A DNA stretch of 64,000 bases from Ianthella basta (lineage: Eukaryota; Porifera; Demospongiae; Verongiida; Ianthellidae): positions 3,818,672 to 3,882,671 of the forward strand of contig OZ025885.1 of assembly GCA_964019415.1 (NCBI GenBank), written 5' to 3'. Shown here piece by piece: positions 8,871-57,700 of this stretch; position 1 is the first letter of the stretch; every line of letters begins with the position of its first letter. The notes under the pieces are model-generated. The model worked only from the letters and a program-made list of their open reading frames with translations. It did not search any database and was not told the origin of the DNA. The position numbers and the translations under genes are program-made.

Positions 8871-9656
8871 CATAGTAAAAATCAATTTGTTTATCTTACA
8901 TACAAATTAAAGCCATAGTAAACATGCAGTTTGCCTAGTTCAGTTTGGCCAGACCTACGCTATAAGTTTAATAACACTTAACTAAACTTTCTCAAGCATG
9001 CATAATGCATCCTTCAAGTGGCTCACACATTTTCCAGAGGGAGACAAAGTATCAGAGCTGGCCAGATGGAATAAGCTATGATTTCAACCAGATTAGACTA
9101 CAATTCAAGTTCACAATTACTAAGAATGTGCAATTTGTAACAACCAATTAATTCCAGTATTACCAGAAACTGATCTATGTAAGTTGTTTCACTTTCTGAA
9201 TATTTTGCACAAAGAAACATTCTAATGCCTACCCTAGCTATTCATAATCCATTTTCATGGCATGAATGACGGATAACGCAGCAAAACAATAAATGAGAGG
9301 CAATGTTGACTGTGTGCATTTTGAAATCAAACATTGCCTAGTTAGCAGACTAGGCCAAAATTGTTCATTCCTAATGCTGCATGGATCAGACTTTTATAGA
9401 CATAATTCAATATTCCATGATTAACATGCCCACTGGAGCTGCATGCCCCGCTGCTGGCTGCCCAGGCCATGGCCTGACCAGATATTTTAGGGCTGGCCAT
9501 TTCTTATAGCTAAGGTACTTCCTGGTCTGTTCACGCAACCATCTCAGAGATGGTTTGCTGATAGGCATAAGCATTTTGGCTTGGCCTAACCATTGACAGT
9601 GCTTCCTCCAGGCCTGATTATAATGTGCTGGATTTGTGTACTTCCTTGAACATTAG

Positions 9657-9781
9657 ATGCTAAGACACTGTCTGACCTACCACAGTCAGAACTACACCTC
9701 TGGGTGACTCACACTGACCCCAGTGTTTTCAGTCTCACTGGCGTGAACAAGTTGACTCTCACTGTCCGCAGCAATCTGAAG
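9657..9781 (+). CDS. NLR LRR exon a, unit U1
   Basis: Acceptor cattag; the first base pair completes the phase-1 codon left by the NACHT exon (G|AT, Asp). It encodes 42 residues from DAKTLSDLPQSE to LTVRSNLK, with the spacing of an LRR strand-turn. The donor is AAG|GCAAGT, that is a GC-AG intron, leaving phase 0. The intron that follows (9782-12988) contains the complete GNAT gene. Confidence 0.72.
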
Positions 9782-10756
9782 GCAAGTACAAATTGTAATG
9801 GTGCTTACTTTTTCTTGGCACACATTGCTCTCATTATTTCTCTACAAACCTTATTTGTTTCATCAGAAATGCAGGTTTATTCCCAAACTCTGCAAATATC
9901 AAGGGCGTAGGCAATAAATTTAAAAGGGGATTTCCAGTTTAGGGTTACAGCTTACTTCAGCATTATGACATCATATCTCACCACAAAAATGGCTGCCTCA
10001 CGCTAGGGTAAAATGTTATGGCAGCTGAGGTCATAGGAAAATGCTGTAAAGGCAAGCAGATGCTGTCTTTTACTCTGCACCAGAAGCAAAAGTGATCCGG
10101 CCAGTAGCAATGCCAGATCATCCTCTAGTGTGTAGCTCTCTCTTTGACTTTGTTGTCCTTGTAGCTGGTTACTTAGCTAGCCAGTTAGCTAGCTACTTGA
10201 AAGGGGAGTTCTGAAATCCCTGGAAACTTACTTATTATGCCCCAGCCTATTACATGGCATTACAGTGTCTATAGTACCTGAAAGGGGCGTATATTATATT
10301 TCGATGCTTGCAATGGATCATAAATGGGGTAATAGCTAGACGTATACACACTATGACACCATGATTGCAAGTTAAATGCTTTGCACTGCTACTCTCCGAT
10401 GTCATCTAGCTCGACCTAGATGTAGTCATCTTGGGCGCAGCCAGAAAGATGAACAAAAGCAATACTTCACTGAACGACACCATTTTCCGAAACTGGATTT
10501 TAATACGTACATGACGTCACACATTTATCGCCGTGTAAGCATGTGAACGCAAATCTGGGTCGAACCTGGATAACAATTCTGGGTTAATTGTCTGTGTGAA
10601 AAAGGGGTGTAACTGTGCCGACCACAGCCTGGCAGGTGAAATTTGGAAGCTGTCAGCCATGAACCTGTCTCTCCAGTGAAGTATATTGCCCTCCTCCTGA
10701 AATAGCTGTCATCAGCTGTCACAAGAAGAACAGTTCCAAAGTGAGAAGGACTCAGA
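9782..10756. other. upstream region of GNAT copy 1 inside NLR intron
   Basis: No gene. It contains a short palindromic tract of repeated tagctagctac (about 10155-10200) conserved in all units, and a U1-specific block at 10211-10435 that is missing from U2-U5. The promoter of the nested GNAT gene presumably lies here, but I see no clear TATA box. Confidence 0.4.
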
Positions 10757-53616: not shown

Positions 53617-53833
53617 ACCCTGGAGGAGAGGGGCTAGCACGCTAGATCAGAACCTTATTAGCTGTAAGGTATAGCAATGCAGAGTAATGATATTATAGCA
53701 GTGAAACAGAACGTGAAACAAGTATGCATTTAACATGCCTTAATTTACAAGACAATTACCTTTACAGGTTTGAAATTTGAACAGAAATGAGTTATGCAAC
53801 TTATGTTTGCACAGTGGCAGTGTGAGTGTTCCA

Positions 53834-54777
53834 TTATTGTGGGATCAATCCACTGACAAGACTGCTGTTGTTGGAGTTCTGCCTTCCAATGGTGTTGGTG
53901 TAGCCCGGGGGAGGTGTGTCAGTTGGCCCCTCCCTTTTGAAGAGCACATCGTCCTCTGACTCAGATGACATGACCATTACTCCTTTCTTTGCACCACTTC
54001 CTACAGTATCACAATAGGTATGCATACAGGTACAAGGTAGTACCATGACCATGACATACAACGGTACATGGGCAGCATAATAATACAAATGGCATTTCAA
54101 AGATGGTCACACTGCAACATCTTGCACTTGGTGAAACAGGCACAGTTTTTCCACAACAGAAAACTTGCCGGGAGAGTGAAGCATGTGGCAACTATCAACT
54201 GAAGCGTTACAAGCACGCGACCACTAGTTATACATACATGTGTAATACATGCCAAGTATATCTTTGATTACCTTGCAGCCTTCCGAATTGGCAACAGTGC
54301 AGTTATGGGTCTAGCTACCACAACCATGCTGGCATGTACTGTATGTTGCATAGGCTTTGAACTGTGACTGGCACTCACTCTTTGAGGCTTTCATGGAGTG
54401 CCCAACTCCTCTGTCCTCATGATCTTCATCATGATTGTTCAGCAAGGCATATTTGATTCTCTTCTTGCGTTTCACCCGACGCCTGCAGCAAGCAACTCAG
54501 TGAAATGATTGTACTTGCAACAGATGTACAGTACGTATTAGGCTGTACAGCCACCACACAAGATAAGCACTGACAAAGTGACACATCTTTCTGTATATAC
54601 TTTTGTGTGTACAAGTATAAGTGCAGGTGTGTACATCCTTCTCCCCGTGCACCCCTCACCCTGCTACACTCCAGTTGGCCTACCTTCTGATATGGCAGCA
54701 GCAAGCACACCAGAACACAAAGGTGAAGAGGAACACCACACCAGCGATAACCAGTACAAAGTACAACACACTCCACT
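53834..54777 (-). CDS. KIAA0319-like TM and tail exons (U5, contiguous with the gene)
   Basis: TM exon 54684-54777: a single helix, then a Cys-rich end (WCACCCHIRR). Cytoplasmic exon 54379-54482: basic stop-transfer RRRVKRKK, then IKYALLNNHDEDHEDR, which parallels the vertebrate tail just inside the membrane. C-terminal exon 53834-54000: MVMSSESEDDVLFKREG parallels the vertebrate acidic MVSESEFDS region and ends LIPQ. This set is the nearest to the ectodomain exons and is the default 3' end. Confidence 0.88.
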
Positions 54778-57700
54778 CTGCAGGAAACAGATTGAGGAAA
54801 TGTGGGCGATAAAGGGTGCAGGTACATGAGGCTTAGCTTAAACTTCGTAACTGTTACGGTTAGCGTTAGGTATAGTACAAGAATCAAGACATTTACACAA
54901 TACAACATTATCATATTATTAGCAGGACGGCCTAAGCAAATAAATGAACTGAATCATAGCAGGACTTAGAAGTACGTATCACAGACCAAGCACAAGATTA
55001 TCAGAAAGCTCATCCTTTCTCACTCAGTTATGCACGAATGTATATTCCTTTTGTTTCACTTACCACAGTTGCTTCTTCGGGGCCCAAAGTTAGATTTGAA
55101 GAAATTCTCCATCCAAAACACATTACATGCACACTTCTTGGTTCTCTGATTACATGTTCCATGCCCAGAGCAGTCATTCAGGCACACTGAAAATACAAAC
55201 ATGGCTTTGTGACACATACACACTACTGCACTGCATGGAGCAAAGTGTATGTATCACACACAATACACTATCTACGTATACTGTACATATTAAGAGAAGT
55301 CAGGCAGGACCATCGTCCCGGCTGTTCTCGGGCACCCAGGGTGGCAGGCATGTTGGACACAGTGACATCACACTATGCCATAAAGTGTCACAAGGGGATG
55401 TCTTCCAGGAATGCACGCTAAGGGCATGCCAAAGGCAGACATTGCAGCTAGTAACTTACGTATATGCACAAACATCCATGGCTGTCATAGTGCCTGAAAC
55501 ATGCTGTACTACACGTATGTGTACTGTATGCCACATACGTACGTACGTAGGTTGCATGTTGTTTCATACGTACGTGTACACATGCTATATAGGTTGTATG
55601 TGATACATATTACATTGTATGTACACACCTTTGGTATCAAACTTCTTAATGGTCATACCCCTCAGTTCACCTCCTCCCAGATACTGCTGCAACTTCTCCA
55701 GGACAACTGTCCCATTGACCAGGAGTCCACTATCTTTATGGATGACAGTGAACTCAACCACTGTGCTACATATTGGAAGGTGGCACAATAGAACATGGTG
55801 ATAGAATGTACAAAATGGACTGACTCTAGAAGGGTTTAACCTTTCTATAAACAGAATGGACACAATGAAATGTAAGATGTTGTACTGTTACATACTGCTA
55901 ATTAGTGCTACAATAGCAGTGCTATGAGCATCACTAGCTTACTCTGGTCCCAGTTGGTATAGGTCAGTCACAGAGACATCTACATTATCGAGCTGGCCCC
56001 TCTCCAACTCCAACTGGATGGCCACCACGAGGTTGTTGAGCATGGAGGTAGTGAAAGTAGTGGTTGGCATGTCCACCACTACCTGCATGATTTTGGCACG
56101 GTTGGGCTCTGCAGACAACAGGACAGATGGAGTAAAAGGATGCAAATACAGTACAGTGGAACCTGCACAGTGTTAGGCAGCCACCTCCTTAAAACAGCCA
56201 GCCTCCCTGGCTCCAAATAGCACTAAAGCACTGCAATCTACCTCTGTTTTGCAGCCACCTCTCTACAAAGGTCAGTTACAGGAGATCTAGCCCACAGGTG
56301 GCATTCTTAGACAAGTTTCACTGTACTCACAACCAAACATACCTCGCACAGCAGAAGCAAAAGGGGATGGACACCATCCATACTCGCACATGCACACAGA
56401 CACACAAACACACTCCATAGTCGTATATACAGTACACTATAACAGATCATTTTCCAGCTAGATGACAAGAAGTGTTACACTTGCTCTCACCAGGGTGCAC
56501 TCTGAGCTGTGTGACATCACAGCTGCTCTGCGACTTGCTGTTGGTGACGCAGAGAGTGAAGTTGTAAGTCCCCTCCACAAGGTTGGCTAGCTTCAGGATG
56601 GGCATGAGGTCTGAACCTTCCTCTATTGCCTGTAGGTACAGTTGTATGAGAGGAAGAGTACATGGAAGGATCGCAACACAGCAGAGCTCCACAATGCTCA
56701 AAGAATCCCAGAATGTAAATTGCCAAATTTGTTATACTTTACCGCACAAGGCCACCCTTTCCCCGCCATTAGAATGACATTAATAAAATGATTGAAAGTT
56801 CCTTGGGGTGGGCCTACGTACTTACGTATGTAGGAGGGGGCGGAAGAAGTCAGCATAACATTATGTAGCACCCTCACTGTTCACTCTGCAGGCTGCACTA
56901 GAGAAAGAACTGCCCACACAATAATATCTAATGAAGGGCAGATCTGCTGTGTTTGTATACATGGAGCACTAGTCACTACAGTCCTACCAGTGCCCCCCCC
57001 CCCCCCCCCCCCCTACACTGGACATCTCCCCCCCCATACCCAGGGTACTACTACCAATCCAACTCACGCCTGCTGCTGGGCTGTCATCGGAGCGGTTCCA
57101 CTTGTATTGCACAATGCCAAAGTCATCATGGCTACCACTTCCATTCAAGCACACCAAATGCTGTGGGAGGTAGATGTGCACATCTGGACCAGCATCAGCA
57201 ACTGGAGGGACCACAGGGTCTGTTGGTTTGTTTGGGGGATGGAGTGGGGGAAGATGTTGAGAGACTGGGTAATAGAAGCAAGTACGTACACATACTATAG
57301 TGTAGACAGCAATGTGTGGTGTGATGGGAATAAGAATGAGCCAGTAGATACACTGCAATATGGTTGGAAGTAAAGGGTGGGAGGAGAAAACATGAAAACA
57401 GTCTGGGAGTGAAGACAGATGAAAGACAAAGAAGATAACTGCGCAGGATAAGAAAATATGAAACAAGTGCTCATTACCAAACCTTTACAGCACTGTGTGT
57501 GTAACAAACACCACCTTAGTAATATCAGAACAACAGATCCAAGATCAAGCGCAAGCACTCACCCTTGTACACTGTAACATTGACAGTGGCCACACTGGAC
57601 AACTTCCTATGGTTTGTGACTTTGAGCTGAAATGTGTACACAGTGGGTGAGGATTCATGGACACGGAGACCAGTCACTATGGTAACTGGTTTGTCAGCAG

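Follow-up and report, generated by a model that had tools for sequence, protein, structure and literature searches.

A five-unit tandem array ending inside two convergent genes of the sponge Ianthella basta, with the architecture of the human RCCX module

The locus described here lies in the genome of the demosponge Ianthella basta (assembly GCA_964019415.1, contig OZ025885.1, C18:3818672-3882671). This 64,000-nucleotide stretch is referred to as the window, and all positions are counted from its first letter unless a contig is named. Self-BLASTN of the window, following up an earlier sequence-only reading that had claimed a tandem array of five units, yields five head-to-tail units between 9208 and 54907 (U1-U5, Table 1), with an identity of 91-99% between aligned pieces of different units, far above chance. 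Each unit contains a 5'-less part of an NLR gene on the plus strand and a 5'-less part of a KIAA0319-like gene on the minus strand, facing each other, and a whole gene of the GNAT family. The left edge of the array lies in the NLR intron that follows the NACHT exon and precedes exon A, and the right edge in the KIAA0319-like intron that separates a Cys-rich exon from the transmembrane (TM) exon. The sequence-only reading had already placed the edges in an intron of each gene and had correctly described an anatomy in which neither gene is duplicated whole. As in modules of the RCCX type, discussed below, the repeat unit thus ends inside two different flanking genes.

The four inner junctions are identical. 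Each is the same non-homologous join of the KIAA0319-like intron (minus strand) onto the NLR intron (plus strand), with 2 bp of microhomology (a CA overlap of both flanks), and reads ...CAATACAA / CACAAAG, the slash marking the join. The left edge of the array reads ...TATTTTG / CACAAAG and the right edge ...CAATACAACA / TTATC.

The NLR gene was modelled as a NACHT exon followed by exons A, B, C and D, using tblastn with paralog frames and five paralog loci on the same chromosome (L032-L036), whose downstream exons match exons A-D at all five loci. Searches for other loci, here and below, were run against the 209-Mb assembly of 96 contigs. We take exons A-D to encode leucine-rich repeats (LRRs), a label taken over from the sequence-only reading; Pfam gave no match in the single scanned frame that includes sequence of exons B and C. 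U1-U4 preserve all four exons together with their splice sites, and U5 retains A, C and D, having lost 121 of the 148 bases of exon B through a deletion of ~1 kb. The 41 whole codons of exon A have the same translation in every unit, with only the split first codon differing in U2, while two residues of exon B differ among U1-U4 and one residue of exon C differs. Exon D varies more, with several residues differing between units, a 1-nt indel at its end that sets U2 and U3 apart from the others, and a stop after 64 codons in U4 and U5, where U1 continues to 69. Exon A is followed by a GC donor (GCAAGT, after 9781 and at the corresponding position of each copy) in all five units. When nine distinct paralog loci are compared with a GC-or-GT pattern, five carry the GC donor as well (L032/L010, L033/L011, L015, L017, L018) and the other four are unmatched. 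A GT donor was considered in its place; judged by eye, it would shift the phase, so that translation would hit a stop as soon as exon B begins, and the GC donor was therefore retained.

The only NACHT exon of the locus carries a frameshifting 5-nt deletion at 7178/7179 relative to all five paralog loci used, after the presumed P-loop, and, read without a further intron, the NLR gene has no intact reading frame. A 64-nt GT-AG stretch (7152-7215) spans the deletion, and its removal would give an open frame of 545 codons; however, the same removal would delete a conserved stretch of the NACHT exon. From its sequence, the parent NLR is probably broken as it stands. NLR paralogs are densely clustered at C18:4.37-5.24 Mb; most share 51-61% identity with the NLR of the window.

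On the opposite strand, exons K1-K3 of the KIAA0319-like gene have splice sites and open frames in all five units. The last unique exon of this gene ends in the phase required by K1, so that U5 completes the gene. K319L-like PKD domains (PF22352) are found in two frames of the single-copy part. The translations of K1-K3, taken exon by exon, fit in phase and resemble a TM segment and tail; these names follow the sequence-only reading, a resemblance to the tail of vertebrate KIAA0319-like proteins is presumed, and Pfam gave no match in the two minus-strand frames scanned across this part. A search with the 5' part returned the query locus itself and, at two stretches of the query, short matches taken as dispersed repeats; none of the 40 candidates scored, out of 2674, was a second copy. 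Since U1 completes the NLR gene and U5 the KIAA0319-like gene, each gene has gained four extra 5'-less exon sets, not the five 3' parts proposed from the sequence alone. The accompanying statement that every unit holds the NLR LRR exons on the plus strand and the KIAA0319-like exons on the minus strand is accurate for U1-U4 and, as regards K1-K3, for all five units, but fails for the mostly deleted exon B of U5.

In each unit, the GNAT gene consists of a single exon whose frame, counted from the first ATG, has 399 codons. All five frames are open, and the copies are 96-98% identical to that of U1. The gene had been described as a whole gene lying between the two convergent genes; it is intact throughout, but is in fact nested inside NLR intron A-B, in the same orientation as the NLR gene. 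A sequence search of the PDB gave no match at E 0.1. Further members of the family occur as a cluster of four full-length copies within about 16 kb on C4 and as a second cluster at C5:3718333-3796753, where 35 matches, many of them partial or with stops, extend over about 78 kb. DNA homology to the C4 copies covers 10612-12122, and the right copy of the perfect 10-bp direct repeat that flanks the insertion (12123) begins exactly where this homology ends. A 10-bp match between the stretches compared is expected by chance about once in 90 cases. No long poly-A was seen at the insertion. On the basis of the direct repeat and the position of its right copy, the inserted gene is probably a retrocopy, for which retroposition is the natural reading. 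At the C4 relative in L038, a splice-acceptor-like sequence was noticed by eye directly before the start of homology.

Table 1. Positions of the array units, gene parts and inserted elements in the window
Feature	Position	Strand	Length	Basis or remark
Unit 1 (U1)	9208..20291	.	11.1 kb	self-BLASTN and junction reading
Unit 2 (U2)	20292..27356	.	7.1 kb	self-BLASTN and junction reading
Unit 3 (U3)	27357..34532	.	7.2 kb	self-BLASTN and junction reading
Unit 4 (U4)	34533..45594	.	11.1 kb	self-BLASTN and junction reading
Unit 5 (U5)	45595..54907	.	9.3 kb	self-BLASTN and junction reading
NLR NACHT exon, single-copy 5' part	6836..8535	+		Pfam NACHT E 2.8e-12; paralog alignment; edges read by eye
NLR exon A (presumed LRR)	U1 9657..9781, U2 20741-20865, U3 27806-27930, U4 34983-35107, U5 46045-46169	+		tblastn; splice sites in 5/5 units; GC donor
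NLR exon B (presumed LRR)	U1 12989..13136, U2 from 23862, U3 from 30986, U4 from 38058	+		tblastn; splice sites; mostly deleted in U5
NLR exon C (presumed LRR)	U1 13319..13491, U2 from 24192, U3 from 31316, U4 from 38353, U5 from 48422	+		tblastn; splice sites
NLR terminal exon D (presumed LRR)	U1 14498..14706, U2 from 25425, U3 from 32606, U4 from 39536, U5 from 49602	+		tblastn; splice sites
GNAT insertion in NLR intron A-B	10578..12122	+		perfect 10-bp direct repeat flanks, 10568-10577 and 12123-12132
GNAT coding sequence	U1 10757..11956, U2 21623-22822, U3 28686-29885, U4 35789-36988, U5 46851-48050	+		Pfam PF00583 E 3.5e-9 for the U1 copy
KIAA0319-like exon K1 (presumed TM)	U1 20070..20163, U2 from 27135, U3 from 34311, U4 from 45373, U5 from 54684	-
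KIAA0319-like exon K2	U1 19765..19868, U2 from 26830, U3 from 34006, U4 from 45068, U5 from 54379	-
KIAA0319-like exon K3 (presumed tail)	U1 19220..19386, U2 from 26285, U3 from 33461, U4 from 44523, U5 from 53834	-
KIAA0319-like single-copy 5' part	54970..62000	-		K319L-like PKD frames at 59-61 kb; PF22352 E 3e-15, 3.3e-10
RT-bearing element of U1 and U4	U1 14871..19071, U4 at about 40186-44374	-		RVT_1 E 2.8e-19 for the U1 frame
Different RT-bearing element, U5 only	50257..53616	+		RVT_1 E 5e-31; no match to other units

The layout is what a simple tandem duplication yields when its ends fall in two convergent genes. In the explanation that we consider quite probable, one such duplication was expanded by unequal exchange into an array that keeps five GNAT copies, with the 3' halves of the two convergent genes as passengers. 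A GNAT copy, presumably a retrocopy, would first have inserted into an intron of an NLR gene arranged tail to tail with the KIAA0319-like gene. A single tandem duplication would then have joined the KIAA0319-like intron to the NLR intron at the 2 bp of microhomology directly seen in the junctions. Because the two genes converge, such an event would leave each with a complete exon set at an array edge and create 5'-less 3' halves inside, as is seen in the layout. Unequal exchange, together with gene conversion between units, would finally have produced five units and homogenised them in part. In the unit alignment, 40 sites private to U1 fall in the first 1500 columns and 11 private to U5 in the final 645, and 2:3 splits in the rest conflict, as would be expected from more frequent sequence exchange in inner units than at the outer edges.

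A block of U1 and U2 (14871-21397) is 99.2% identical over 6.5 kb to a block of U4 and U5 (40186-46701). Since the shared reverse transcriptase (RT)-bearing element of U1 and U4 lies in this block, which runs on into the next unit, U1-U2 sequence was copied to U4-U5 or in the reverse direction. The same near-identity would also fit allelic versions of a shorter array strung together during assembly, inflating the copy number, an artefact to which the duplication mechanism would still apply for the shorter array. Against this, one RT-bearing element is private to U5, the units have private indels and substitutions, the divergence between units is typically 1-6% per 500 columns, and the outer edges have diverged. 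Furthermore, the unique flanks were found once and no leftover units were seen among the candidates scored. A query spanning 9000-9800 gave five matches of 97-100%, all in the array, and otherwise short matches of 73-88% (40 of 266 candidates scored), and a GNAT search gave five copies of 96-100%, all in the array, with the next best at 81% (79 of 79 candidates scored); neither disclosed a sixth unit elsewhere. We therefore regard an assembly artefact as quite unlikely and the array as probably real.

GNAT is the only gene that gains complete copies in the array. The substitution counts bearing on its retention pool changes over related units and assume that sites are independent, which makes all p-values approximate. 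Over five units, GNAT changed at 24 of 928 nonsynonymous sites compared to 19 of 269 synonymous sites (p 0.001) and 58 of 849 flanking noncoding sites (p 2e-5), the synonymous and flanking rates being in agreement. No lesion is found in any GNAT copy, compared to about 5 small frameshifts expected, an estimate derived from just 2 indels that shift the frame among 458 flank sites. Since GNAT alone gains complete copies, all of them open and with a nonsynonymous deficit, the likely effect of the array, as judged from sequence, is a higher GNAT dose, with the NLR and KIAA0319-like 3' halves likely carried as passengers. The deficit relative to synonymous sites and the absence of lesions in GNAT also speak against an array that is neutral in every part including GNAT, formed by the same duplication mechanism and owing its intactness to recent homogenisation. 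Such neutrality would agree with the KIAA0319-like exons, which do not differ from noncoding sequence (4/277 vs 26/707 in all units, p 0.10; 4/277 vs 15/707 in U1-U4, p 0.61), and with GNAT among U2-U5, which is no different from its near flanks. On balance, we consider it unlikely.

Several observations weigh against a retained GNAT gene with passenger 3' halves. Among U2-U5, GNAT is not slower than the noncoding flanks within 300 columns (33/1200 vs 14/386 changed sites, p 0.39), and whole-gene duplicates in Drosophila yakuba are often without raised expression (PMC5460883). The orphan LRR exons, those lacking a 5' part of their own, also change less than expected of passengers. For exons A, C and D of U2-U5, 6 of 374 nonsynonymous sites changed compared to 132 of 2249 noncoding sites (p 0.0002), or 7 of 377 when the split first codon of exon A is added (p 0.0007). 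Exon B was dropped from this set, and these counts replace an earlier one that had included the broken exon B of U5 (14 nonsynonymous, 9 synonymous). The comparison with synonymous sites is not significant (6/374 vs 6/121, p 0.08). When U5 is dropped instead and all four exons of U2-U4 are counted, the result is 8 of 490 nonsynonymous compared to 149 of 3288 noncoding sites (p 0.0015), again not significant compared to synonymous sites (6/152, p 0.11). A second alignment, with changed sites in exons A, B, C and D of 1/125, 3/148, 4/173 and 7/193, and in their respective flanks of 19/559, 21/405, 27/380 and 15/329, gives sums of 15/639 and 82/1673 (p 0.005), the same direction as the substitution test.

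Lesion counts bear on the same point. Local flank rates predict about 6.4 stops or small frameshifts for the orphan NLR exons, and a simulation in which rates were pooled and exon D was shortened gave 6.0. None is observed in the exon bodies, and one or two if the 1-nt indel at the end of exon D and its earlier stop are included. The Poisson chance is 0.002 for none, 0.012 for at most one and 0.046 for at most two, rising to 0.12 with the loss of exon B in U5 as a third. The orphan exons are thus somewhat cleaner than nearby introns predict, with a weaker signal once the changes in the exon D tail are considered, and as a sign of conservation the low lesion count is only suggestive. Three sources could account for the signal: gene conversion with U1 at a time when it still worked, input into the array from alleles of functional single-copy genes, or actual use of the orphan exons.

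Such use would be most direct if each 5' part could splice to any of its five 3' sets, the NLR 5' exon to those with LRR exons and the KIAA0319-like part to those with TM and tail exons, giving variants from one promoter each. In Drosophila, mod(mdg4) and lola combine a shared 5' part with several alternative 3' exon sets that differ from one another and are used. The succession of one 5' part and several 3' sets is alike here, but the present sets are near-identical and known from sequence alone. Splice sites and phases are kept, exon A starting in the phase left by the NACHT exon and K1 in that of the last unique exon, exon C to the exon B of the following unit is also in phase, and the orphan LRR exons change less than noncoding sequence. 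However, the sole NACHT exon is frameshifted by its deletion, the near-identity of the sets at the protein level leaves little variety, U5 lacks most of exon B, and exon D ends earlier in U4 and U5 than in U1. Alternative splicing of this kind is very improbable. We likewise give very little credence to its stronger form, in which the array is maintained as a store of exons on both sides, LRR sets behind the one NACHT exon and TM and tail sets behind the one PKD ectodomain, purifying selection acts on the orphan LRR exons through their use in transcripts, and the NACHT deletion is bypassed by a small intron or belongs to a null allele.

The arrangement returns us to a well-described human locus. 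In the RCCX module of the major histocompatibility complex class III region, each segment has the order STK19B-C4-CYP21-TNXA: C4 and CYP21 are whole, STK19B is what is repeated of STK19, namely 914 bases from its 3' end, and TNXA, on the opposite strand, is a truncated part of TNXB. Alleles carry one to three segments, and their number is altered by unequal crossover and conversion (PMC8362596, PMC6769589). The likeness is close: each module ends in a gene repeated only in its 3' part and in a facing gene on the opposite strand, whole genes lie inside, the intact parents stand at the edges (STK19 and TNXB in the human case), and some modules carry a retroelement, HERV-K(C4) there and RT-bearing elements in U1/U4 and U5 here. 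The suggestion that no locus with this two-sided layout had been described is overturned by these accounts of RCCX, which has the same architecture (PMC8362596, PMC6769589). The loci differ in that the genes are unrelated, that five units are present here compared to one to three segments, that one whole gene is included instead of two, and that the whole gene of this array, GNAT, lies within an intron of the NLR, itself one of the two genes duplicated in part. STK19, C4, CYP21 and TNX were not among the domains of the 10 window frames scanned, and were not sought elsewhere in the genome. By this comparison, the array has the architecture, and likely the mechanism, of RCCX at an unrelated locus. 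The two-sided layout is thus a known outcome, and what is new is a five-unit case at an unrelated locus.

Capture of gene fragments by tandem duplication is common in flies: 1004 of 1116 duplications capture 1306 genes or gene fragments, with 66 whole-gene duplications and 76 chimeric genes (PMC5460883). Fragment capture is alike in both cases, with population-scale duplications there and a five-unit array here. A literature search on convergent partial tandem duplications gave no paper matching all of its terms, and a study of sponge NLRs (PMC12909245), whose main text contains neither 'tandem' nor 'intron', has no bearing on this layout. When both ends of a duplication fall in convergent genes, the two parents stay intact and the sequence between them is amplified, which would make tail-to-tail neighbours natural sites for gene amplification.

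The Pfam scan of 10 window frames gave matches to NACHT, GNAT, K319L PKD, RT and endonuclease domains, with three frames giving none. The RT-bearing element common to U1 and U4 only adjoins a simple repeat. Near the right end of the window, a minisatellite of 21-bp units extends over 62747-63212.

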